A stretch of 51,349 bases of DNA. Source: a virus. The translations under genes were made by a program, and so were the position numbers. This document shows positions 3,864 through 13,809 of this stretch, piece after piece. The stretch lies in IMG/VR virus record IMGVR_UViG_3300028800_000130, positions 1 through 51,349 of that record, one strand, 5' to 3'. How positions within the stretch are numbered: position 1 is the stretch's first letter; every line of letters starts with the position of its first letter. Under the pieces are notes generated by a model. The model was not told the origin of the DNA. It searched no databases and saw only the letters and a list, made by a program, of their open reading frames with translations.

Positions 3864-4184
3864 CTAGCCGACCATATCGTCGGAGATCGCCTTATCCATC
3901 GTGCCGCCGTTGGCGTCGAGATACGCCTGAAACGAGGCGGTCAGCAGATCTTTCTTCGACAGGCCGCGCAACGCCGCCTCGATCGAGAAACGCCGGCGAA
4001 ACGACGATTCGACCTTGAAGCCGAGATCGACGAAATTGCGATAGCCGCCGTCGCTGGGCGTCGACAGATGATCCGGCGCCGCTTGCTCTTCGATCTTCGG
4101 CTTAGCTTCCAAGAGACTGCGCCGGCGATGCGGCGGCGGTCGAATGCCCCGCTCCGGGGCCGGCGGGTTTGGCTCGTCGGTCAC
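3864..4184 (-). CDS. ribbon-helix-helix partition protein (ParB/ParG-like)
   Basis: The product has 106 residues and starts with a GTG overlapping the ParA stop (GTGA). The N-terminal half is Pro-rich, basic and probably disordered. The C-terminal 50 residues show a short strand (NFVDLGFKV) followed by two helices (SSFRRRFSIEAALRGLS and KKDLLTASFQAYLD). This is the layout of ribbon-helix-helix centromere-binding proteins such as ParG. Together with the adjacent ParA this makes a type Ib-like partition pair. The DNA-binding site is not known; a 14-bp palindrome just before ParA is a candidate. The RHH call is by pattern and size, not by an obvious signature. Confidence 0.62.
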   Translation of the reverse strand: MTDEPNPPAPERGIRPPPHRRRSLLEAKPKIEEQAAPDHLSTPSDGGYRNFVDLGFKVESSFRRRFSIEAALRGLSKKDLLTASFQAYLDANGGTMDKAISDDMVG

Positions 4185-4831
4185 TTCTGGCCTCCTTCGA
4201 TGATCAGATTGAGCGTCTCGGAGATCTCCGCCGCCAGCGCGGCCGCGCGCGCGTTCAACGAAGGGAAGTTGGTCTCGGTGACGCCCATGCCGAAATTCTG
4301 CGCCTGCTGATAGCTGATCCGGCCGGGCAGGATCTCGCCGAACGTCTGAAAGCCGGCCGAGGCGATCAATTCCTTGGCCTCGTCGACGCTGATGGCGCTG
4401 TCGTAGGGGTTGTTGATGACGAAGCGGATCTTGCCGCGCTGGACGCCCTTGGCGCGCAGCTCGGTGGCGAAGGCGATCTGCGGCTCGAGATCGTCGAGGC
4501 TGACGCCGAGCGGGCAGATGACGAGATCGGCCGCCTTGGCGATCTCCAGCGAGCCGGTGTCGCTATCCGGCCGCCCGTCGAACACCATCAGATCGTAGAG
4601 ATCCTCCTGCGCCAGCGCGCTGCGAACGCTGGCGAAGGCTTCGGCGGCGATCTCCGGCTTGACGCCGGCCTTCATTCGGGTGGCCGCCCAATTGCTCGAG
4701 GTCTTTTGCTTGAGGTTGAAGTCGGCGATCTTCACCTTCCACTTCGCGCTGGCGAAGGAGACGGCGATCAGACGCGCGATCGTCGACTTCCCGACGCCGC
4801 CCTTCTGCGACAGGCAGGCGATCGTGTACAT
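4181..4831 (-). CDS. parA: ParA-type partition ATPase
   Basis: This is a 216-residue Walker-type ATPase with the deviant Walker A KGGVGKST at residues 10-17 and a VFDGRPD stretch as Walker B-like switch. The first Asp motif is ADFNLKQKT where classical ParA has a D-x-D-x-Q-x-S. It lacks an N-terminal helix-turn-helix, which fits the small type Ib ParA class. ParA polymers or gradients on the nucleoid move partner-bound DNA apart. It is followed with GTGA overlap by an RHH protein. A phage with this pair would persist as a low-copy plasmid prophage. A GGAG lies before the ATG. Alternatives are MinD/Soj-like orphan ATPases. Confidence 0.85.
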   Translation of the reverse strand: MYTIACLSQKGGVGKSTIARLIAVSFASAKWKVKIADFNLKQKTSSNWAATRMKAGVKPEIAAEAFASVRSALAQEDLYDLMVFDGRPDSDTGSLEIAKAADLVICPLGVSLDDLEPQIAFATELRAKGVQRGKIRFVINNPYDSAISVDEAKELIASAGFQTFGEILPGRISYQQAQNFGMGVTETNFPSLNARAAALAAEISETLNLIIEGGQK

Positions 4832-4902: not shown

Positions 4903-5028
4903 CTAGCCGGCGCAGAAAGCCGCAGCCTTAAGCAAGTGAGTGATTTTGAGCCCGATCAGCAGCCAGGCGAGAACGCCAAGGCCGACGAGAAGCCAGCCGA
5001 CCTTGGCGGGAGGAAGGGGACGCCTCAC
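4903..5028 (-). CDS. 41-residue membrane protein
   Basis: The frame starts with a GTG overlapping the stop of the kinase-like gene (GTGA), the same coupling used elsewhere in this operon. The peptide has a basic N-terminus (MRRPLPPAKVG), one long hydrophobic segment (WLLVGLGVLAWLLIGL) and a short tail with one Cys. It is a single-span membrane protein with the positive end presumably inside. It has no recognised family. The position inside the leftward operon and the tight coupling support it as a real gene. Confidence 0.55.
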   Translation of the reverse strand: MRRPLPPAKVGWLLVGLGVLAWLLIGLKITHLLKAAAFCAG

Positions 5029-5594
5029 GCGGCCGTCCGAATCGGACGATTGGCGCCGACGAGCTGCGGGACGCCGAATTGAAGCGCCCGTTCGATCGCC
5101 TTTTCGAGATCGCTGATCGAGCCGTCATTCCAGACGCGAAGATCGACGGCGGTCTGGTCGAACTGGTCGAAGTCATAAGGGGAGGGGCCGGCGCTGGAGC
5201 GCTTGACCTCGATCACCACGCCGCCCAAGGCGCGATAGAAGTGCCCCTGGCCGCGCCGAACGCCGTCGAAGCAATAGGAGCGCGTCGTTTCGAGCGCGCG
5301 GGTCGCCATGAAGGGCATGATGTCGGCGCCGAAGGTCGACTCGAGCGCCTTGCCGAGATCGCCGAGGATCTTCCGGTTCTGCCAGGTCTTATCGAGAATG
5401 TGGGTGTGTCGAGCCTTGCCCTCCTGCGTGTAGACGTCCTCGGGCTGAAGCTTCATCCAGCGCACTGCGAAATCGCGCAGCGGCTCGCCGTCATTGACCG
5501 CGACGACGCCGTATCGCTCCATCAAAATGCTCTGAAACTGGCTCTTGCCGGCGCCGGGATTGCCACAAAGCGCGATGATATGCGGGAGATTCAT
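5025..5594 (-). CDS. P-loop nucleoside monophosphate kinase-like protein
   Basis: The product has 189 residues with an N-terminal Walker A, GNPGAGKS, at residues 11-18. It is followed by a region with NDGEPLRDFAVRW, typical of dNMP kinases of phage (T4 gp1-like and DUF-type nucleotide kinases), and by YCFDGVRRGQ, where a substrate-binding Asp and Arg are expected. It probably phosphorylates deoxynucleoside monophosphates for replication, acting in the cytoplasm. An operator palindrome lies 11 bases before its start. The substrate is not predictable and other P-loop small-molecule kinases are possible. Confidence 0.72.
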   Translation of the reverse strand: MNLPHIIALCGNPGAGKSQFQSILMERYGVVAVNDGEPLRDFAVRWMKLQPEDVYTQEGKARHTHILDKTWQNRKILGDLGKALESTFGADIMPFMATRALETTRSYCFDGVRRGQGHFYRALGGVVIEVKRSSAGPSPYDFDQFDQTAVDLRVWNDGSISDLEKAIERALQFGVPQLVGANRPIRTAA

Positions 5595-5860: not shown

Positions 5861-7471
5861 TTACGCGAAAATCTCCCACGGGTGATCTCGATTTTCAGGC
5901 AAAATCCGCTCGACGAAGCCGGGCGTTGCCTCGACGATCGCCCGTTGCGTCTGAAAGTGCTCTTTGAGCTTCGAATTGAGATCGGCCGAGTAGATGGTGA
6001 TGAAGCAGACGTTCGGACCGCGCTTTTTCGAGCGCATGCCGCGCCCGATGCGCTGCCGCAGCGCCACCTCAGCCTTCCCGCCGCCGGCGAGCTGCACCAG
6101 GCTGACCGCCGGCACGTCAACGCCGACATCCAAGATCGTGGTGCCGATCAGAACGTCGATCAGACCCTTCGCCAGACGCGACAGCGCGCGCTTGCGCTCG
6201 GGTTGATCGTTGTCGCCCTGAATGAACTCGACCCGCAGCCCGGCCTCGCTCATTTTGCGCTGTAAGAGCTTGCCGTGCTCGGTCCGCTGCACCAGCGTCA
6301 TCACCGGCAGCTTCAGCCTCGCCGCGCGCCTGGCCTCGGCGACGATATCGCCGTGCATGAAGGGGTTTTCGAGATAGCCGAACTGATAGGCGCGCTGCCA
6401 CGGCGAGGTGCGATGCAGCTTGGGGTGGGGCTTGCTGACGTGAAACTTGAAGCTCGGCGTCGCCAGGATGCCGCGGTCGATCAGTAGCTTCTCCGACACC
6501 TGAATGAGGATCGGGCCGAACGCCGCCATCAGCCGCATGTTGTCTTCGGCGTCTGAACGCATGAACGGCGTCGCGGTCAGCGCGACCCGGATCGAGGCGT
6601 TCTTGCAGTGGCGCAGAATCCGATAGTAGGAATCGCCGCCGGCTTCGTGGGCTTCTTCGCCGATGACGACCTCGACGAGCTCCAACAGCTTGACGTGGCG
6701 CTCGTAGACCTTGGTCTTCTCCTCGAATTTCTCCTTGGCGAGCTTGAGGACGTCTTCGCGCTTCAGCGCCGCCGGCCGGGGCAGCCCCTTCTTGATCGCC
6801 TTCTCGTCGGCGGCGGCATGCGCCTTGACGATGGCGCGCGCCTCGGCGTTGAGATCGGGCTCCTCGAGCCGGGCGACGAAAGTCTGCACCATGCCGCAAT
6901 TGACGCCGCGGACCGGCTTCCAGACGCCGTCGCCGATGATTCCGACGTTCATGCCGGCCGATTTGAAGCCGTCGGCCATCTGGTAGAGCAGGATCCCGCG
7001 GGTCGTCAGGAACATCGTCATCCGGCGGTAGCGGGCGGCTATCAGCTTGGCGATTTTCGACTTACCGCCGCCGGTCGCCACCTGAATGATGCCGCGGCCG
7101 TGCTTTTCGACCTGGCGCAGCGCCTTGAGCTGAAAATCGTAGTCGGGATTGTCGTTGCCGAACTCGTCGACGATCGGGCTCTCCGGCCCGAGCGGCTCGG
7201 CGTGCGGCCGCATGATGATCTGGACGTTGTGACCGAGCCGAACAAGCTCCGAATGGACGAGATAGACGAAGCCGGCCGGGAAGGTGTCGTTCTTGCGGGT
7301 ATAGAAGCTGGAGCGGCCGTTCCAATGGGTCGTTCCCATGAATTCGGCGCCCTCGACTGTGTAGGAGAGCAGCTCCGCCACCTGGTCGACGACTGTCTTC
7401 GAGGCGCCAATCAACTTGGCGACCACGCAATTCGCCGCAAGCTTGAGGTTTTCGGATTTGGACAAAGCCAC
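5861..7471 (-). CDS. SF2 DNA helicase, UvsW-like
   Basis: The product has 536 residues and starts with GTG. An N-terminal domain (WNGRSSFYTRKNDTFPAG near 50-66) resembles the UvsW N-terminal domain. The helicase motifs follow in order: Walker A ATGGGKSK at 132-139, a DEAD-box variant EEAHE at 272-276, motif III TATPF at 299-303, and motif VI QRIGRGMR at 473-480. UvsW unwinds branched DNA and R-loops during T4 replication and repair, and this protein probably serves fork restart or origin control. Residues 205-262 form a charged helical insertion. It opens the leftward operon. A shared region with the rightward ParB operon holds an operator site. Confidence 0.85.
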   Translation of the reverse strand: MALSKSENLKLAANCVVAKLIGASKTVVDQVAELLSYTVEGAEFMGTTHWNGRSSFYTRKNDTFPAGFVYLVHSELVRLGHNVQIIMRPHAEPLGPESPIVDEFGNDNPDYDFQLKALRQVEKHGRGIIQVATGGGKSKIAKLIAARYRRMTMFLTTRGILLYQMADGFKSAGMNVGIIGDGVWKPVRGVNCGMVQTFVARLEEPDLNAEARAIVKAHAAADEKAIKKGLPRPAALKREDVLKLAKEKFEEKTKVYERHVKLLELVEVVIGEEAHEAGGDSYYRILRHCKNASIRVALTATPFMRSDAEDNMRLMAAFGPILIQVSEKLLIDRGILATPSFKFHVSKPHPKLHRTSPWQRAYQFGYLENPFMHGDIVAEARRAARLKLPVMTLVQRTEHGKLLQRKMSEAGLRVEFIQGDNDQPERKRALSRLAKGLIDVLIGTTILDVGVDVPAVSLVQLAGGGKAEVALRQRIGRGMRSKKRGPNVCFITIYSADLNSKLKEHFQTQRAIVEATPGFVERILPENRDHPWEIFA

Positions 7472-7532: not shown

Positions 7533-8225
7533 GTGACGAAAGCCCAATTTGCAGACCCGACGAGTCTGCTGCCGAACCCCTGGAACACGAATCGCATGTC
7601 GCCGGACAGCGAAGGGAAGCTCGACAATTCAATCCGACGGTTCGGCTGCTTCAAGCCGATCGTCGTCCGAGAGATCAGGGTCGACGACGAGGGTGTCGCA
7701 CTCGAGATCATCGGGGGCGAGCACCGGGCGCAATCCGCAGTCAGGGTCGGCCTCGATCGCGTCCCGATCATGAATCTCGGCCCGATCAGCGACAAGGAAG
7801 CGAAAGAGATTTCCCTCGCGGATAACGCCAGGTACGGCGCCGACGACACCCTCGAATTGGCGAAACTCCTCAAAGACCTTGGGGACCTCGACGAAATCCA
7901 ATCCTATCTCCCCTATGCCGACGCGGATCTCACATCGATTTTCTCAGCGTCAGATATAGCGCTCGACGAGCTGGAGCTCGACGACGCCTTCGAGGGAAAC
8001 AAGGAAAAAGAGCCCGAGCCTGAAATCCCCGCGATCAAGGCGGCGAAAACTCACACGATCATGCGTTTCAAGGTGCCGCTGAGCGACGCCGAGCGCATCA
8101 CCGAGATGGTCACGCGAATCCAGACCGCCCACGGCTACACCGCCGGCGACCAGCTCACCAACGCCGGCGACGCACTGGTTCATCTGCTTCTGACCTCCGA
8201 CCAGTCAGGCGCCGAGGATGATTAA
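7533..8225 (+). CDS. ParB/Srx-fold protein (first of two)
   Basis: The product has 230 residues, GTG start, with AGGA seven bases upstream. The N-terminal 100 residues match the ParB N-terminal domain: LLPNPWNTN, FKPIVVREI, GGEHRAQSA (the CTP-binding G-x-x-R box) and SLADNARYGADD. The C-terminal half is acidic and then amphipathic, without a helix-turn-helix, so it is not a classical centromere-binding ParB. In phages such proteins can bind or hydrolyse nucleotides and often sit beside DNA-modification genes. A second ParB-like gene follows after a small Cys-rich gene. Whether it relates to the ParA gene at 4181 is unclear, since that already has an RHH partner. Confidence 0.8.
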   Translation: MTKAQFADPTSLLPNPWNTNRMSPDSEGKLDNSIRRFGCFKPIVVREIRVDDEGVALEIIGGEHRAQSAVRVGLDRVPIMNLGPISDKEAKEISLADNARYGADDTLELAKLLKDLGDLDEIQSYLPYADADLTSIFSASDIALDELELDDAFEGNKEKEPEPEIPAIKAAKTHTIMRFKVPLSDAERITEMVTRIQTAHGYTAGDQLTNAGDALVHLLLTSDQSGAEDD

Positions 8226-8424
8226 GCGCCGGCCGCAACGAAAGAAGATCAAGCCGGCGATCGCGCCGCGCTTCGGCGACTGCGTCGAGTGCCGCTTCTA
8301 CAAGCCCGGAAACACTGCAAGCGGCTGCGCCGGCTGCACGGCCGGCGAGAATTTCGAGGCCACGGTCGAGGAGCTCGACCCCTACGCAGATCGTTTCCTA
8401 TCGCGCCGGAGCGACAATTCGTGA
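8218..8424 (+). CDS. small Cys-rich protein, probable zinc binder
   Basis: This is a 68-residue protein that overlaps both neighbours. Two Cys pairs, CVEC and CAGC, lie 13 residues apart in the middle, a layout typical of zinc ribbons. The N-terminus is strongly basic (RRPQRKKIKP). It may be an adaptor of the surrounding ParB-like proteins or contact DNA. No family is recognised; translational coupling supports that it is real. Confidence 0.6.
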   Translation: MIKRRPQRKKIKPAIAPRFGDCVECRFYKPGNTASGCAGCTAGENFEATVEELDPYADRFLSRRSDNS

Positions 8425-9101
8425 CCACGCCCAAACTCCCCAATGACGGCAAGATCGAGCTGTGGGACGTCGACAAACTCGTCCCCTACGAGAAGAACGC
8501 CAAGAAACACCCCGACGAGCAGATCGACGGTCTGATCAAGCTGATCCAGCAGTTCGGCTGGACGCAGCCGATCGTCGTTCAACGCGCGACCGGTTCGATC
8601 ATCATCGGCCACGGCCGGCGCCTGGCGGCCGTCAAGATGGGCCTCAAGAAGGTCCCGGTGAACGTCCTCGACGTCACCGACGAGCAGGCCCGCGCGCTGC
8701 GCCTGGCCGACAACCGCGCATCCTCGACCGAATACGACACCTCGCTGATCCAATCCGAAATCTTCGACCTGAAGGATCTCGGCTACGATCTCGACACGCT
8801 GAATTTCAGCGACAAGGAGCTAGAGTTTCTCGACGGCGGTCTCGACGAGATCGACGACAGCGCCTTTGTCGAGGACGTCTCGGCCGCGGTCGAAAAGCAG
8901 AAGGAAGACAACGCCGCCAAGCAGGAGCTTGTCGACCAGCAGGACGCGCCGCTCGCCAAGAGCTTCGGCTTCAAGCGCCTGACGATCGAGCAGGGCCGGC
9001 GCGTCAAAGCGTTCATGACCCGCGTCGAAATCGAGACCGGCAAGACTGGCGTTCACGCGCTCATGGCTCACTTCGATGGGCTCGGCGTTCCCGCGAAGTA
9101 A
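8421..9101 (+). CDS. ParB/Srx-fold protein (second)
   Basis: The product has 226 residues, GTG start at 8421 overlapping the previous gene by four bases. Upstream frame extension would run through the Cys-rich gene. The N-terminal 110 residues carry the ParB hallmarks: LVPYEKNAKKH, WTQPIVVQRATGSIIIGHG with G-H-G-R-R, and LRLADNRASS. The C-terminal region is charged and helical. It is a common phage ParB-like protein. It is a paralogue of the gene at 7533 with low similarity. The two may form a heteromer. The operon continues into an ABC ATPase and GNAT gene. Confidence 0.82.
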   Translation: MTTPKLPNDGKIELWDVDKLVPYEKNAKKHPDEQIDGLIKLIQQFGWTQPIVVQRATGSIIIGHGRRLAAVKMGLKKVPVNVLDVTDEQARALRLADNRASSTEYDTSLIQSEIFDLKDLGYDLDTLNFSDKELEFLDGGLDEIDDSAFVEDVSAAVEKQKEDNAAKQELVDQQDAPLAKSFGFKRLTIEQGRRVKAFMTRVEIETGKTGVHALMAHFDGLGVPAK

Positions 9102-9109
9102 TTGATAAA

Positions 9110-9124
9110 TCAAAGGTGATTGAT
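9110..9124 (+). promoter_or_regulatory. degenerate operator-like site overlapping a start codon
   Basis: TCAAAGGTGATTGAT fits the consensus except for one base. It covers the ribosome-binding site (AAGGTG) and ATG of the next gene. Confidence 0.35.
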
Positions 9125-9485
9125 GTCCGATGACGGCAAGATAGTCGCATTTCCGAAGAAGCCGGTCGCCGAGGACTCGTTTCGCATCAAGCCGGCTGAG
9201 AACCCGAACGCCGACGCCGTGCTGATCGCCACGCTCGAGGATGCGCTGGATCGCGCCAAGAAGGGCGAGATCACCGGCTGCGCGATGATCTCCTGGTATC
9301 CCGACGGGCCGGGCTTTCTGCGCTGGCTGTCCATGCCTGTTCACGAAAAGAACATCGATGTCGCGGCGTTTCGCTTCATGGGCGGTCTCAGCCTGCTGGA
9401 GGCCGATCTGAAGTGCATGGCGCACGAGCGCTATCTCACCTTCGAGGAAAGCGCGACGCCCGTTCATGAGGGCGAGCCGTCGTGA
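9123..9485 (+). CDS. hypothetical protein, 120 residues
   Basis: No family is recognised. The start at 9123 has AAGGTG close upstream. The N-terminus is charged, followed by MISWYPDGPGFLRWLSMPV and a helical C-terminus (FMGGLSLLEADLKCMAHERY), giving a compact alpha/beta protein with no export signal. The gene overlaps the ABC ATPase by four bases (GTGA), so it may be a partner of the ABC-GNAT pair. Some phages carry a comparable small protein beside ParB genes, but no relationship can be claimed. Confidence 0.7.
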   Translation: MSDDGKIVAFPKKPVAEDSFRIKPAENPNADAVLIATLEDALDRAKKGEITGCAMISWYPDGPGFLRWLSMPVHEKNIDVAAFRFMGGLSLLEADLKCMAHERYLTFEESATPVHEGEPS

Positions 9486-10216
9486 AATACGTCATCGACA
9501 AGCGCTTCACCACGTCCGTCGAGCGCACCCCGCGCGTCCTGGAGATCGCCGAGGGCTTCGGTCTCGGGCTCTCCGACAAGGAATTCGTCGTTTACGACCA
9601 CCTCGAGGTCGAGGTGAACCAGGGCGACGTCGTCTACATCACCGGCCAGTCGGGATCAGGCAAGTCGCTGCTCCTGAAGGAGCTCGCCCGCCAGATGCAG
9701 GCCGGCGGCCTTTCCGTCGCCGATCTCGACAAGATCGAGCTGCCGGAGAAGCCGACGATCGACGTTTTGGGCGCGACCACGACGGCGGCGGCCGACTTTC
9801 TCGCCAAGGCAGGCATTTCCGACGCATACCTCTACTTGCGAAAGCCTCTGCAACTCTCCGACGGTCAGCGCTATCGCCTTAAGCTCGCGATCCTGATGTC
9901 CGGCCCGGAGAAGGTCTGGGTGGCCGACGAATTCGGCGCAGTGCTCGACCGCATCACCGCGAAATGCGTGGCGTTTAATATTCAGAAGGTCGCCCGCGCG
10001 CTCGGAAAGACGCTGATCGTCGCAACCACGCACACCGATCTCGAGGCGGAGCTCGCCCCGAGCCTGATGGTGACGAAGCGCTTCCGCGAGAAGATCCAGG
10101 TCAAGAAGGCGGAGCGCGTCCCGCCGCCGTGCTCGCATGTCTATTCGCGGGCGATGGAGCAGCCCTATCCGCGCCGATGCGTCCACTGCGGCCTGCCGGA
10201 GGAGATCCGCGCGTGA
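9482..10216 (+). CDS. soluble ABC-family ATPase (ABC part of a split ABC-GNAT system)
   Basis: The product has 244 residues. It carries Walker A GQSGSGKS at 55-62, signature-like LSDGQRYRLKLA near 125-136 and Walker B VWVADEFGA, then a His-switch region (VATTHTD). It has no membrane segments. The C-terminal tail has four metal-ligand-like residues, C-x-H and C-x-x-C, in CSHVYSR...CVHCG. ABC ATPases fused to a GNAT domain are a recognised architecture (COG2401-type), and here the GNAT is encoded 240 bases downstream with an 82-residue gene between. I infer that the two proteins cooperate. It is not a transporter. Confidence 0.8.
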   Translation: MKYVIDKRFTTSVERTPRVLEIAEGFGLGLSDKEFVVYDHLEVEVNQGDVVYITGQSGSGKSLLLKELARQMQAGGLSVADLDKIELPEKPTIDVLGATTTAAADFLAKAGISDAYLYLRKPLQLSDGQRYRLKLAILMSGPEKVWVADEFGAVLDRITAKCVAFNIQKVARALGKTLIVATTHTDLEAELAPSLMVTKRFREKIQVKKAERVPPPCSHVYSRAMEQPYPRRCVHCGLPEEIRA

Positions 10217-10461
10217 AGACCATCCGTCTGCCGGGCTGCTGGCCCATCAAGATCGACGCGAGCCTGGCGCACTGGAGGCGCGAAGGAACCAAGCACGGTC
10301 CAAAGTCCATGCCGCGTATCATGGCGATACTTTGGTGCAAGCTCGATACGCTTTCGGGGAAGCCACATCCCGAGTGGAGCGGGCGCCGGCTGTGGCTCTA
10401 TTTTCGCGGCGGCTACGCTTTCTGCGCCGACTTCATCATCGATCGGCGAGGACTTTCGTGA
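10213..10461 (+). CDS. hypothetical protein between the ABC ATPase and GNAT genes
   Basis: This is an 82-residue protein with a GTG start overlapping the ATPase stop; the stop overlaps the GNAT start. It is basic and aromatic-rich (WPIKIDASLAHWRREG; LWLYFRGGYAFCADF). No family is recognised. The tight coupling at both ends argues it belongs to the same functional unit. A longer upstream frame is a shadow. Confidence 0.6.
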   Translation: MKTIRLPGCWPIKIDASLAHWRREGTKHGPKSMPRIMAILWCKLDTLSGKPHPEWSGRRLWLYFRGGYAFCADFIIDRRGLS

Positions 10462-11363
10462 CATTCGCAGGGAAGCTCACTGAGGGGCATTGCGAGTCGG
10501 GCGCTGTCGACACGCATTTCGATCGACGGACGCAACCCAGCGCTCGTTTCTCGCTGTTAGACGACATGATCGTCAGCAGGGGCGACAAGAGCGACTGGGA
10601 ACTGCTTCACGAGCTTCATTACAAGGCCGAGGGCCTACCGCTCGGCCCGCGCTACTGGAAGACGACCCTGCACGGCCAGACCATCGGCGTGATCGTCACC
10701 GGACTGCCGAAAGGGCTGCTCAAAGAGCGCCACATCGTCATGCCGAAGCTCAAGCCCAAAGGCGGCGACAACAAGCTGATCAACACGCAGCGCTACGTCT
10801 TCGTCAACGCCAATTTCCGGGTGATCGGCCGTTTCGTCTTCGACACGATGTACCGCGGCATCGGCTGCGGCTACCGGATGATGAACCTCGCCGCCCGCAT
10901 GGAGGACAACACCTACATGGAGATCCAGAGCTCCATGTCGAAGTTCAACCATTTCGGCCAGAAGGCGGGCTTCAAATTCGTCACCCCGCTAAACTCCAAC
11001 AAGTTCGAGGTCGGGATCCGCTTCTTTCGCGAGAATTTCAGCGCCAGCCCGCAGGATTTCGAGGCGATCGTCGCCGAGCTCGAGGGAAAGCCGCCGGCGG
11101 AGCGCGAAAAGCTGCTCGGCGCGTGCCGGGCCTTCTATTACCGCCACTCCCACATGGAAAAGACGGGCGTCAACAAGGACAAGGGCACTTCGCGCGTCGA
11201 CGCCATGAGCGAGCGGGATCTCATCCGGCGCCTTCAGCAGGTGACGCTCGCCAGTCCGATGTACGGCATCTTCAAGAACCCCGACAAAGGCCGGAAGCTT
11301 CCCGACGCGCTTCCGCTCACCGCCTTTGATCGCCAGGCCCCGAACGAACCGCTGATCCTATGA
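10458..11363 (+). CDS. GNAT-fold protein, partner of the ABC ATPase
   Basis: The product has 301 residues, GTG start at 10458. A conserved segment begins GDKSDWELLHELHYKAEGL, followed by PLGPRYWKT. The GNAT motif A-like part is FVNANFRVIGRFVFDTMYRG then GCGYRMMNLAA, where the Arg-Gly-x-Gly-x-Gly/Ala cofactor loop is expected. Motif B-like SSMSKFNHFGQKAGF follows. The C-terminal 120 residues are helical. The GNAT fold is used by acetyltransferases and by the Mu Mom DNA modification enzyme. With two ParB-like proteins and an ABC ATPase beside it, modification of phage DNA is a hypothesis; protein or RNA acetylation is an alternative. The frame start used here is coupled to the preceding stop. 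Confidence 0.72.
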   Translation: MTFAGKLTEGHCESGAVDTHFDRRTQPSARFSLLDDMIVSRGDKSDWELLHELHYKAEGLPLGPRYWKTTLHGQTIGVIVTGLPKGLLKERHIVMPKLKPKGGDNKLINTQRYVFVNANFRVIGRFVFDTMYRGIGCGYRMMNLAARMEDNTYMEIQSSMSKFNHFGQKAGFKFVTPLNSNKFEVGIRFFRENFSASPQDFEAIVAELEGKPPAEREKLLGACRAFYYRHSHMEKTGVNKDKGTSRVDAMSERDLIRRLQQVTLASPMYGIFKNPDKGRKLPDALPLTAFDRQAPNEPLIL

Positions 11364-11662
11364 GCGACCTCGACCACTTCGATCCCACCGACAAGCAGGC
11401 GGAGATCCTGCGCACCGTCTTCCGCTTCATGGACGCCGGCCAGATCCCCTCGGTCAACGAGCTGAAGGCGGCGCTCTCCTACGGGCCGGACGTCTCCAAG
11501 GCCGCGATCACCTGTTCGCTGCGCTACCTGCAAACCCACGGCGCCATCGAGCTGGTCTACGGGGAGAAGCATGGACCGATGCGTCCCGGAATGAAGGCTT
11601 ACGTAAAACCGACACCGGCAGCCTATAGGCGGTTCAGACCAACGCCGGAAGCGATCCTTTGA
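11360..11662 (+). CDS. winged helix-turn-helix protein, LexA-like N-terminal fold
   Basis: The product has 100 residues. It starts MSDLDHFDPTDKQAEILRTV, then IPSVNELKAAL and VSKAAITCSLRYLQTHGAIE. This pattern (T-x-x-Q-x-x-I-L, P-S-V-x-E-x-x-x-x-L, S-K-x-x-x, then a helix and a wing) is that of the LexA DNA-binding domain. There is no C-terminal peptidase or dimerisation domain, so it is a small monomeric or dimeric DNA-binding protein. It ends just before an unusual inverted repeat and an operator palindrome. It is the best in-window candidate for the regulator of the palindrome family, but this is inference from size and fold. Confidence 0.65.
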   Translation: MSDLDHFDPTDKQAEILRTVFRFMDAGQIPSVNELKAALSYGPDVSKAAITCSLRYLQTHGAIELVYGEKHGPMRPGMKAYVKPTPAAYRRFRPTPEAIL

Positions 11663-11785: not shown

Positions 11786-12496
11786 ATGAGTGAAGAAGAA
11801 ACGCCGCCGGAGATCCCGGCTCCGACCCCGACGCCGGAACCCTCCAACGAGGAGGACGCCGCGCTCGAGAAGGAGATCGAAGCCGCTCCGGAGGAGGAGA
11901 AGAAAATCTTCGTCGCCGGCATGGGCAAGACGACGCCGGCCGACCGGCAGTGGATCCGCGACGAGGTGGCGGAAGGCCGGATGAAGCCGTCGGCCTGCGC
12001 CGCCAAATATGGCGTGTCGGTCCAATACGTCTCCAAGCTGCTGCGCCAGGCCGGCATCACCTATGGCTCGCGCAAGAAGGAGCGCGAGGAGGCCGAAAAG
12101 GCTGCGATCGCCGCCAAGGAGGCGGAGGCCAAGGCGACCTTCGCCGACCGGCGCCTGCGCTTCATCGAAGAGCACAAAATGTCGGCCTACGCGCAGCTCC
12201 GCGCGGCTTTCCAGATGGAAGGTCAGCGCCAGAAGCGATGGCGCGATGGGCTGCTCGCCGGCGGGGCGCCGCCAACGCCAAAGGACGCCAACGCGTCGGC
12301 GCGCACAATGGCCGTGCTCGACGAGCGCATCCGGATCCTGCTCGGCATCGACGAGATCATCGACGAGAAGGAGCTGCCGCAGATCGACGTCCGCTACATG
12401 GGCGACGAGGAGATCATTGCGGCCCGCAAGGGCGCCCAGAGCACCGATGAAACACTACCAACCCTAGACAACAACATCATCGAGGAGTCGCCGTGA
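11786..12496 (+). CDS. terS: terminase small subunit-like protein
   Basis: The product has 236 residues. It begins with an acidic Pro-rich tail (EEETPPEIPAPTPTPEPS), then a helix-turn-helix-like segment at about 75-105 (SACAAKYGVSVQYVSKLLRQAG), then a long charged helix and a C-terminal acidic tail. A DNA-binding small subunit directly before the large terminase is the expected order; it overlaps that gene by four bases. Its role is to recognise the packaging site and position the motor. Identity rests on position and HTH rather than on a distinctive family motif. Confidence 0.65.
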   Translation: MSEEETPPEIPAPTPTPEPSNEEDAALEKEIEAAPEEEKKIFVAGMGKTTPADRQWIRDEVAEGRMKPSACAAKYGVSVQYVSKLLRQAGITYGSRKKEREEAEKAAIAAKEAEAKATFADRRLRFIEEHKMSAYAQLRAAFQMEGQRQKRWRDGLLAGGAPPTPKDANASARTMAVLDERIRILLGIDEIIDEKELPQIDVRYMGDEEIIAARKGAQSTDETLPTLDNNIIEESP

Positions 12497-13809
12497 CAGC
12501 CCTTTCCGTTCGATCGGCTACGGCGCCGGTCGGACCACTTCGCGCCAACGCCAAGAAGCTCTTTGTCCACAAAGGGCAGGCGATGGTTCTCAACGATCGC
12601 CGGCGCTTTCGCGTCATCGTCGCCGGCCGCCGCTGGGGAAAGACCGCCTGCGCGCGCACCGCGATCATCATCGCCGCCCGGCAGCCCAAGAAGCTGATCT
12701 GGTACGTTGCGCCGACCTACCGCATGGCCCGCGGCATCATGTGGCGCGAGCTGCTGGACGCCATCCCGCGCGAGCTGATCGCCAAGATCAACGAAACGCT
12801 GATGACCATCCACCTGGTCAACGGCACGATCATCGAGTGCAAGGGCGCCGACAAGCCGGACACGTTGCGCGGCACCGCGCTCGACCTGGTCGTGATCGAC
12901 GAGGCGCAGGATATTCGCCCCGACACCTGGTATCTGGTGCTTCGCGCAACGCTGGCCTCGACCGGCGGAGACGCGATCATCATCGGCACGCCGAAGAGCT
13001 TCAACTGGCTCTACGACGTCTACATGCTCGGCCAGCGCGGCGACAATTACTTCGACGACAAGGAGAAGGTCTGGCGCGTCAACCCGTGGAAGAGCTGGCA
13101 GTTCCCGACCATCACCTCGCCCTTCATCCCGCCCGAGGAAATCGAGGCGGCCAAGGGCGATATGGACGAGAAGTCGTTCCGGCAGGAGTTCGAAGCCTCC
13201 TTCGAGACGATGTCGGGCCGCGTCTATCACGCGTTCGACCGTAAGATCCACCTGGGGAACTACCCCTTCAATCCCAAGCTGCCGATCTGGGTCGGCCAGG
13301 ACTTCAACATCGATCCGATGACCTCGGTCATCATGCAGCCGCAGCCAAACGGCGAGATCTGGATCGTCGGCGAAGTCGTGATGTTCGGCTCCAACACGCA
13401 GGAGACCGCGGACAAGCTCGGCGAGAAGTTCTTCCGCAACATGCGGCAGACGACGATCTATCCCGATCCGGCGGGTCAGCAGCGCAGCCATTCGCGCGGC
13501 GAGTCGGATCTCGACATCCTGCGCGACGCCGGCTTCACCCGGCTCAAATATCGTCGCAAGGCGCCGAGGGTCTCGGACCGCATCAACGCCGTCAACCGCA
13601 TGTTCCGGGCCGCCGACGGCTCTATTCGGATGCGGATCGACAACACCTGCAAGCACACGATCACGGCTTTCGAACAGGTCATCTACAAGCCCGGCACCCG
13701 CGAGGTGGACAAGACGATGAACATCGAGCACGCGGCGGACGCCGTCGGCTATTGCATCGATCTTGAATTCCCCGTGCGGAAGGTGGAAATTGCCGGGTAT
13801 TCTCGTTGA
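12493..13809 (+). CDS. terL: terminase large subunit
   Basis: The product has 438 residues. Walker A is GRRWGKT at 45-51, Walker B LVVIDEAQD with the catalytic Glu, and the C-terminal nuclease has GQDFNIDPM, PDPAG and HAADAVGY with the expected Asp residues. It packages DNA into proheads, using ATP hydrolysis and cutting the concatemer. The GTG start at 12493 has GAGGAG upstream and overlaps the small subunit. An uninterrupted, full-length gene. Confidence 0.95.
   Translation: MTALSVRSATAPVGPLRANAKKLFVHKGQAMVLNDRRRFRVIVAGRRWGKTACARTAIIIAARQPKKLIWYVAPTYRMARGIMWRELLDAIPRELIAKINETLMTIHLVNGTIIECKGADKPDTLRGTALDLVVIDEAQDIRPDTWYLVLRATLASTGGDAIIIGTPKSFNWLYDVYMLGQRGDNYFDDKEKVWRVNPWKSWQFPTITSPFIPPEEIEAAKGDMDEKSFRQEFEASFETMSGRVYHAFDRKIHLGNYPFNPKLPIWVGQDFNIDPMTSVIMQPQPNGEIWIVGEVVMFGSNTQETADKLGEKFFRNMRQTTIYPDPAGQQRSHSRGESDLDILRDAGFTRLKYRRKAPRVSDRINAVNRMFRAADGSIRMRIDNTCKHTITAFEQVIYKPGTREVDKTMNIEHAADAVGYCIDLEFPVRKVEIAGYSR

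Follow-up and report, generated by a model that had tools for sequence, protein, structure and literature searches.

DNA modifiers that combine a GNAT with an ABC ATPase are a kind already predicted in print. The GNAT and ABC system of Tenacibaculum phage pT24, a phage matched by the fused ABC-GNAT family phrog_11143, is predicted to carry out acyl modification of a DNA base, and this is a prediction only (PMC7824862). CmoX, an experimentally demonstrated cytosine modifier, has a ParB neighbor (PMC12783734). Here, we examine an operon in the IMG/VR virus record IMGVR_UViG_3300028800_000130 that encodes two ParB-like proteins, a soluble ABC ATPase, and a GNAT-fold protein, and we favor, at somewhat better than even confidence, the reading that it is a ParB-ABC-GNAT DNA-modification module. 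The record stands alone, and we refer to its whole analyzed stretch of 51,349 bases as the window.

ParB1 through GNAT are encoded by seven rightward genes (7533-11363, plus strand). The gene that follows, for a winged-helix-like (wHTH) protein, overlaps the GNAT gene and is thus counted as a member, extending the operon to 11662. Between ParB1 and wHTH there are seven junctions, of which six overlap by 4 to 8 bp; at the remaining one, ParB2 and the gene for a 120-amino-acid protein are separated by 21 bp. An earlier model reading of the letters alone (the sequence-only reading) had proposed a tightly coupled rightward ParB-ParB-ABC-GNAT operon, and the gene calls, the Pfam and PHROGs matches, and these overlaps establish that it is real.

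The ABC ATPase (9482-10216, 244 amino acids; Pfam ABC_tran 1.6e-12) matches the ABC half of phrog_11143 at 4e-19. Profile comparison with hhalign aligns the split with the fused ABC at an E value of 2.9e-24 and the split with the fused GNAT at 93% probability (E 2.8e-7), values that come from single-template, shallow alignments and are to be read beside those of a Mom control (2.7%, E 0.017). Judged by these profiles, the split ABC and GNAT genes are the domain-by-domain counterpart of the ABC-GNAT fusion family. The sequence-only reading had taken the locus for such a known fusion, split here by an 82-residue gene; the homology stands, and the 82-amino-acid protein (10213-10461; no family match, function unassigned) is lineage-specific, found in 5 of 85 loci. 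The 120-amino-acid protein (9123-9485; no Pfam match, function unassigned) is likewise lineage-specific (13 of 85 loci).

Locus sets found with the GNAT cannot show how often the GNAT is absent, and we therefore repeated the search from the terminase large subunit (TerL). The module is present in all 75 TerL-anchored loci with enough upstream sequence: ABC and GNAT are separate genes in 71 of them, and in the other 4 one fused ABC-GNAT protein occupies the corresponding position between ParB2 and wHTH. These four fusions score 395 to 410 bits against the fused-family profile versus 52 to 65 bits against the split ABC, and the two that were scanned match phrog_11143 at ~1e-105. The fused form therefore naturally replaces the split form at one locus, which is the strongest evidence that ABC and GNAT function as a single unit. 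Two ParBs are encoded in 50 of 50 TerL-anchored loci with long upstream sequence. The sequence-only reading had made its hypothesis depend on conserved co-occurrence of the ParB, ABC, and GNAT genes, and such co-occurrence is what the 75 loci display.

The order helicase (minus strand), ParB-ParB-ABC-GNAT-wHTH, terminase small subunit (TerS), and TerL is kept in viral and bacterial-genome loci of sufficient length, and wHTH always follows GNAT in the relatives. The same cassette occurs in SSU5, RHph_X66, nickie, and Cyrano. It also occurs in 905 plasmid records, among which Klebsiella, Escherichia, and Acinetobacter predominate and, among the matches listed, lengths are mostly near 110 kb; there, the module proteins are labeled "ABC transporter" or "hypothetical protein." The module is a hallmark of SSU5-like phages and phage-plasmids of ~110 kb. 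In the remoter set, median identity to the window is 61% for ABC, 62% for TerL, 54% for ParB1, and 48% for GNAT. One record, IMGVR_UViG_3300046694_000296 (215,656 bases; loci L285 and L291), has two TerL regions ~105 kb apart and possibly represents a pair of related phage genomes that were joined either during assembly or naturally.

Both ParB-like proteins match Pfam ParB_N above the cut-off. ParB1 (7533-8225, GTG start, 230 amino acids) has a ParB-like N-terminal fold (ParB_N 2.7e-10; phrog_723 1.7e-52), and the G-x-x-R and DN motifs are conserved across 90 relatives, with G-x-x-R, which holds the P-motif arginine, in at least 95%. ParB2 (8421-9101, GTG start, 226 amino acids; ParB_N 8.6e-9; phrog_930 4.7e-65) resembles the ParB domain of phage ParB-methyltransferases: it matches the ParB part of the DNA methyltransferase family phrog_498 at 3.1e-38 and the N-terminal part of PADLOC MTase_II at 5.5e-29. 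In PHROGs and PADLOC, both window ParBs match the ParB part of such ParB-methyltransferases. The partition-ParB model TIGR00180 scores them at 31.9 and 42.5 bits, under its curated cut-off of 58.45, and we rejected a partition function by model score. ParB-fold proteins bind CTP, ATP, or GTP; in one survey, the protein that bound GTP was fused to an acetyltransferase (PMC12704722).

Between the ParBs lies a gene for a 68-amino-acid, zinc-knuckle-type protein with four cysteines (8218-8424; C-x2-C-x10-C-x2-C). The small Cys-pair protein that the sequence-only reading had listed in the cassette proves real and widely conserved, as a C-x2-C...C-x2-C open reading frame is found between the ParBs in 92 of 115 distinct loci versus 3 of 115 on the minus strand. 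SSU5 and Cyrano lack it, and their ParBs abut. A Pfam scan of the operon proteins with the Com model gave no match.

The Walker A, signature (LSDGQ), Walker B, and H-loop motifs of the ABC ATPase are intact and near-invariant across 48 relatives, and its structural model is an ordinary nucleotide-binding domain (predicted local distance difference test [pLDDT] score, 87.7). The C-terminal Cys/His cluster remarked on in the sequence-only reading is present but private to the window, occurring in 1 of the 95 ABC proteins searched, and we rejected a zinc cluster in the ABC tail as a family trait. A PADLOC match of the ABC protein to mad3 was set aside as generic ABC similarity only.

The GNAT protein (10458-11363, GTG start, 301 amino acids), an acyltransferase-like protein and putative DNA-base acyltransferase, gave no match in the Pfam scan despite matching phrog_886 at 2.9e-117, a family that carries the wrong PHROGs label "ABC transporter ATP-binding subunit." Its AlphaFold (AF2) model, from 50 aligned relatives, has a GNAT fold with a mean pLDDT of 85.7, and solved GNATs match it in a PDB fold search (best E 1.7e-5). 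The sequence-only reading had likened this protein to Mom of phage Mu and proposed a structural search against Mom. When run, that search ranked Mom of Salmonella phage FSL SP-031 first in a viral fold library (E 4.8e-5), yet Mu Mom (8bv8) only 35th in the PDB (E 1.4e-3). The likeness holds for the fold but is not supported for the family: the PF25680 (Mom) model gave no GNAT match at an E value of <1 (control Mu Mom, 2.4e-75), and Mom family membership was rejected at hhalign probabilities of 2.7% directly and 4.4% via the fused family. Mom is a relative of the GNAT in fold, not by demonstrated family membership.

H54-Y55 and R133-G134 are invariant in the GNAT relatives. The HY pair, ending the first helix, is common to split GNAT, fused GNAT, and Mom, and W-x-x-[FL]-x3-H-Y is common to the split and fused forms; we regard the shared HY motif as a lead, not as proof of common chemistry. 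Mu Mom reads RNSES, including S124, where the GNAT reads YRGIGCG, a correspondence of loops made by eye with no reliable alignment; S124A of Mu Mom is called inactive in PDB 8bv8. PDB sequence searches with the GNAT, as a single sequence or a profile, returned nothing relevant, and the GNAT matches no known defense system in PADLOC. Around Mom itself, a ParB is encoded directly upstream in the actinobacterial phage Appa (L140:4469-5621) and upstream with one ~75-codon gene between in the actinobacterial phage Shade (L150:3145-4561); no ParB is annotated beside Mom in phiSHEF2, PM87, or vB_CECAV_044.

Outside the SSU5-like group, among 74 loci with upstream sequence, some of them near-duplicates, 38 encode a ParB directly upstream of an ABC-GNAT, fused or split; apart from these, the set contained a single ParB. 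Split ABC and GNAT forms exist beyond the window. The ParB-ABC-GNAT order is found in Gordonia phage NHagos, Jace, and Javan141, with ParB_N confirmed for Javan141. The fused GNAT half matches Pfam Acetyltransf_7 in 31 of 31 members. A formyltransferase-like protein is encoded in 23 fused-family loci, directly after the fused gene where read, and PF00551 was confirmed for 5 of these proteins. A Formyl_trans_N-type protein with a conserved HSHDFIGRKT-like motif was recorded in loci L156, L159, L162-L167, L170-L176, L177, L179, L180, L182, and L184. The position of this gene after ParB-ABC-GNAT suggests a formyl step in that fused subtype; in the window, we found no formyltransferase. In Jace (L236:5972-6397), the gene directly after ABC-GNAT encodes an aspartate decarboxylase (PF02261 2e-33), which perhaps supplies beta-alanine or a CoA-related donor.

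The wHTH protein (11360-11662, 100 amino acids), a DNA-binding protein with a weak LexA_DNA_bind match (0.0038), is encoded by the last operon gene. Downstream come a TerS-like DNA-binding protein (11786-12496, plus strand; phrog_867 DNA binding domain 5.9e-8), conserved in position, and TerL (12493-13809, plus strand; phrog_2 5.1e-47). The late region is otherwise standard, with portal, major head protein, tape measure, and central tail fiber. The window is probably about half a genome, as its relatives mostly measure 105 to 120 kb. To the left, a UvsW-like helicase (5861-7471, minus strand; phrog_16 2.7e-76) is a constant neighbor, always divergent from ParB1 in SSU5-like phages; it has weak similarity to TIGR04095, the restriction helicase of a phosphorothioation system (1.1e-17, far under the TIGR04095 cut-off). 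Also to the left, on the minus strand, are genes for a protein resembling deoxynucleoside monophosphate (dNMP) kinases, close to the module (5025-5594; phrog_139 1.6e-14), and for a ParA-like protein separate from both ParBs (4181-4831; phrog_164 1.2e-28). Kinases of the dNMP type can accompany base hypermodification.

DNA modification is, in our view, the best reading of this operon and is also the published prediction for the fused family (PMC7824862). Genomic context supports it well, with base acylation itself a prediction. What the data show is the genes and their integrity, the intact ABC motifs, the GNAT fold, the obligatory linkage, and the exchange with a fused ABC-GNAT protein; that DNA is the substrate is inferred, as are the donor of the acyl group, the protective role, and when the module acts. 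The two ParB-like proteins, of a kind that phages pair with or fuse to DNA methyltransferases, would engage and select DNA. The soluble ABC ATPase may dimerize on DNA and spend ATP to distort or open the duplex, and the GNAT could then transfer an acyl group from acyl-CoA to the exocyclic amine of a base, with the zinc-knuckle and wHTH proteins in accessory or regulatory roles. Activity of the module late in infection is probable; DNA would then be marked ahead of packaging by the adjacent terminase, and the mark would let phage DNA survive restriction in the next host. Several points weigh against this reading. In the PDB fold search, the GNAT model matched generic GNATs best, and GNATs acetylate proteins or small molecules more often than DNA. 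Profile homology between the GNAT and Mom is not significant (hhalign 2.7%, E 0.017), it is unusual for a modification that serves protection alone to be kept universally within one phage group, and we found no chemical or genetic data for any family member. No role for ParB proteins in modification loci has been proven (PMC12783734). Serratia phage eta, considered as a modified-base precedent, was rejected, as its paper reports no modified bases (PMC3918226).

The terminase is a constant neighbor, which makes packaging the main rival: ParB and ABC would condense, select, or prepare concatemers for terminase, and the GNAT would acetylate terminase or another packaging protein. The module adjoins TerS-TerL in every SSU5-like locus and in NHagos, lies upstream of TerL in Javan141, and is retained obligatorily (75 of 75). 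However, it is found far from terminase elsewhere, after the tail-fiber genes in Komp_PAO1_1, beside an exonuclease in Jace, and in the replication region of P12024S, and most tailed phages package without it, so we consider a packaging or DNA-maturation factor unlikely. A reading in which an undescribed acylated base is installed by an ATP-driven, ParB-targeted, multisubunit machine, and this mark is needed in the lytic cycle of ~110-kb phage-plasmids because the neighboring terminase reads it, so that modification gates packaging, is a long shot. Alternatively, the target of the GNAT could be a protein of the host, for example RNA polymerase or a defense protein, with ABC and ParB as regulators. 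The fold matches of the GNAT are mostly protein or amine acetyltransferases, and there is precedent for phage GNATs that target RNA polymerase (Rac, cited in PMC7824862). Genes for host takeover are usually early and patchy, whereas this module sits by late genes and is universal, and the constant ABC pairing and methyltransferase-related ParBs point to DNA; we hold such a role to be improbable.

Two further explanations seem to us very doubtful. A nucleotide or small molecule, rather than polymeric DNA, might be modified, as an anti-defense measure or a precursor step; the dNMP-kinase-like gene, the formyltransferase or aspartate decarboxylase adjoining fused relatives, and the binding of nucleoside triphosphates by ParB-fold proteins (PMC12704722) would fit this scheme, whereas the window yielded no formyltransferase. 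The relatives are ~110-kb phage-plasmids and the window has a ParA-like gene, as would be expected if the two ParBs segregated a phage-plasmid and the other genes were unrelated passengers. However, both ParBs fall under the TIGR00180 cut-off, and their operon partners are ABC and GNAT, not ParA. The ABC and GNAT genes are retained just as consistently as the ParB genes, and the ParB-ABC-GNAT order recurs in the non-plasmid phages Jace, Javan141, and NHagos; we rate partition the least probable explanation of all. As for the small-molecule alternative, soluble ABC ATPases of this type and ParBs act on DNA where they are understood.

What is new here is the form with split genes, two ParBs, a zinc-knuckle protein, and linkage to terminase, which is fixed in a clade of phage-plasmids, together with its natural swap with the fused form; a partial literature search, which did not cover a key 2013 paper, found no earlier notice of either. 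The module is fixed across a large clade that spans phages and phage-plasmids, among them the 905 plasmid records, and because a fused ABC-GNAT naturally stands in for the split pair, the prediction can be tested in a single pair of strains. If the DNA is indeed modified, the module would contribute a further base chemistry, account for some of the host range of these phages and phage-plasmids, and offer a first handle on the role of ParB in phage DNA modification, which has been stated as unknown (PMC12783734).

Compared with known systems, the window is closest to the SSU5-like phages SSU5, Cyrano, nickie, and RHph_X66, which share its order from the divergent helicase through wHTH while the interspersed small genes vary; in RHph_X66 and nickie, TerS-TerL follow the module, as in the window. 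The window is a distant, alphaproteobacterial-type member of this group, its GNAT being 62% identical to that of RHph_X66 and ~43% to that of SSU5. The phrog_11143-type family, annotated as MK0520/COG2401-like, has the same two domains in the same order, also with ParB upstream. The window differs in its separate genes, two ParBs, zinc-knuckle protein, and lack of a detected formyltransferase, and its GNAT is too diverged for Pfam, unlike the phrog_11143-type GNAT half. Mom (PF25680) shares with the window GNAT the fold, the HY motif that ends the first helix, and, in some phages, ParB neighbors. The Mom loci inspected lack an ABC partner, however, and the window GNAT, unlike Mom, has the canonical R-G-x-G CoA-loop motif. 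Mu Mom is also accompanied by a small CxxC...CxxC protein, Com, whose likeness to the four-cysteine protein is one of pattern only. In the phrog_498 ParB-methyltransferases and the CmoX loci, a ParB domain of the same class adjoins a DNA-modifying enzyme or is fused to it; there the catalytic partner is an S-adenosylmethionine (SAM) enzyme, whereas in the window it would be ABC plus GNAT.

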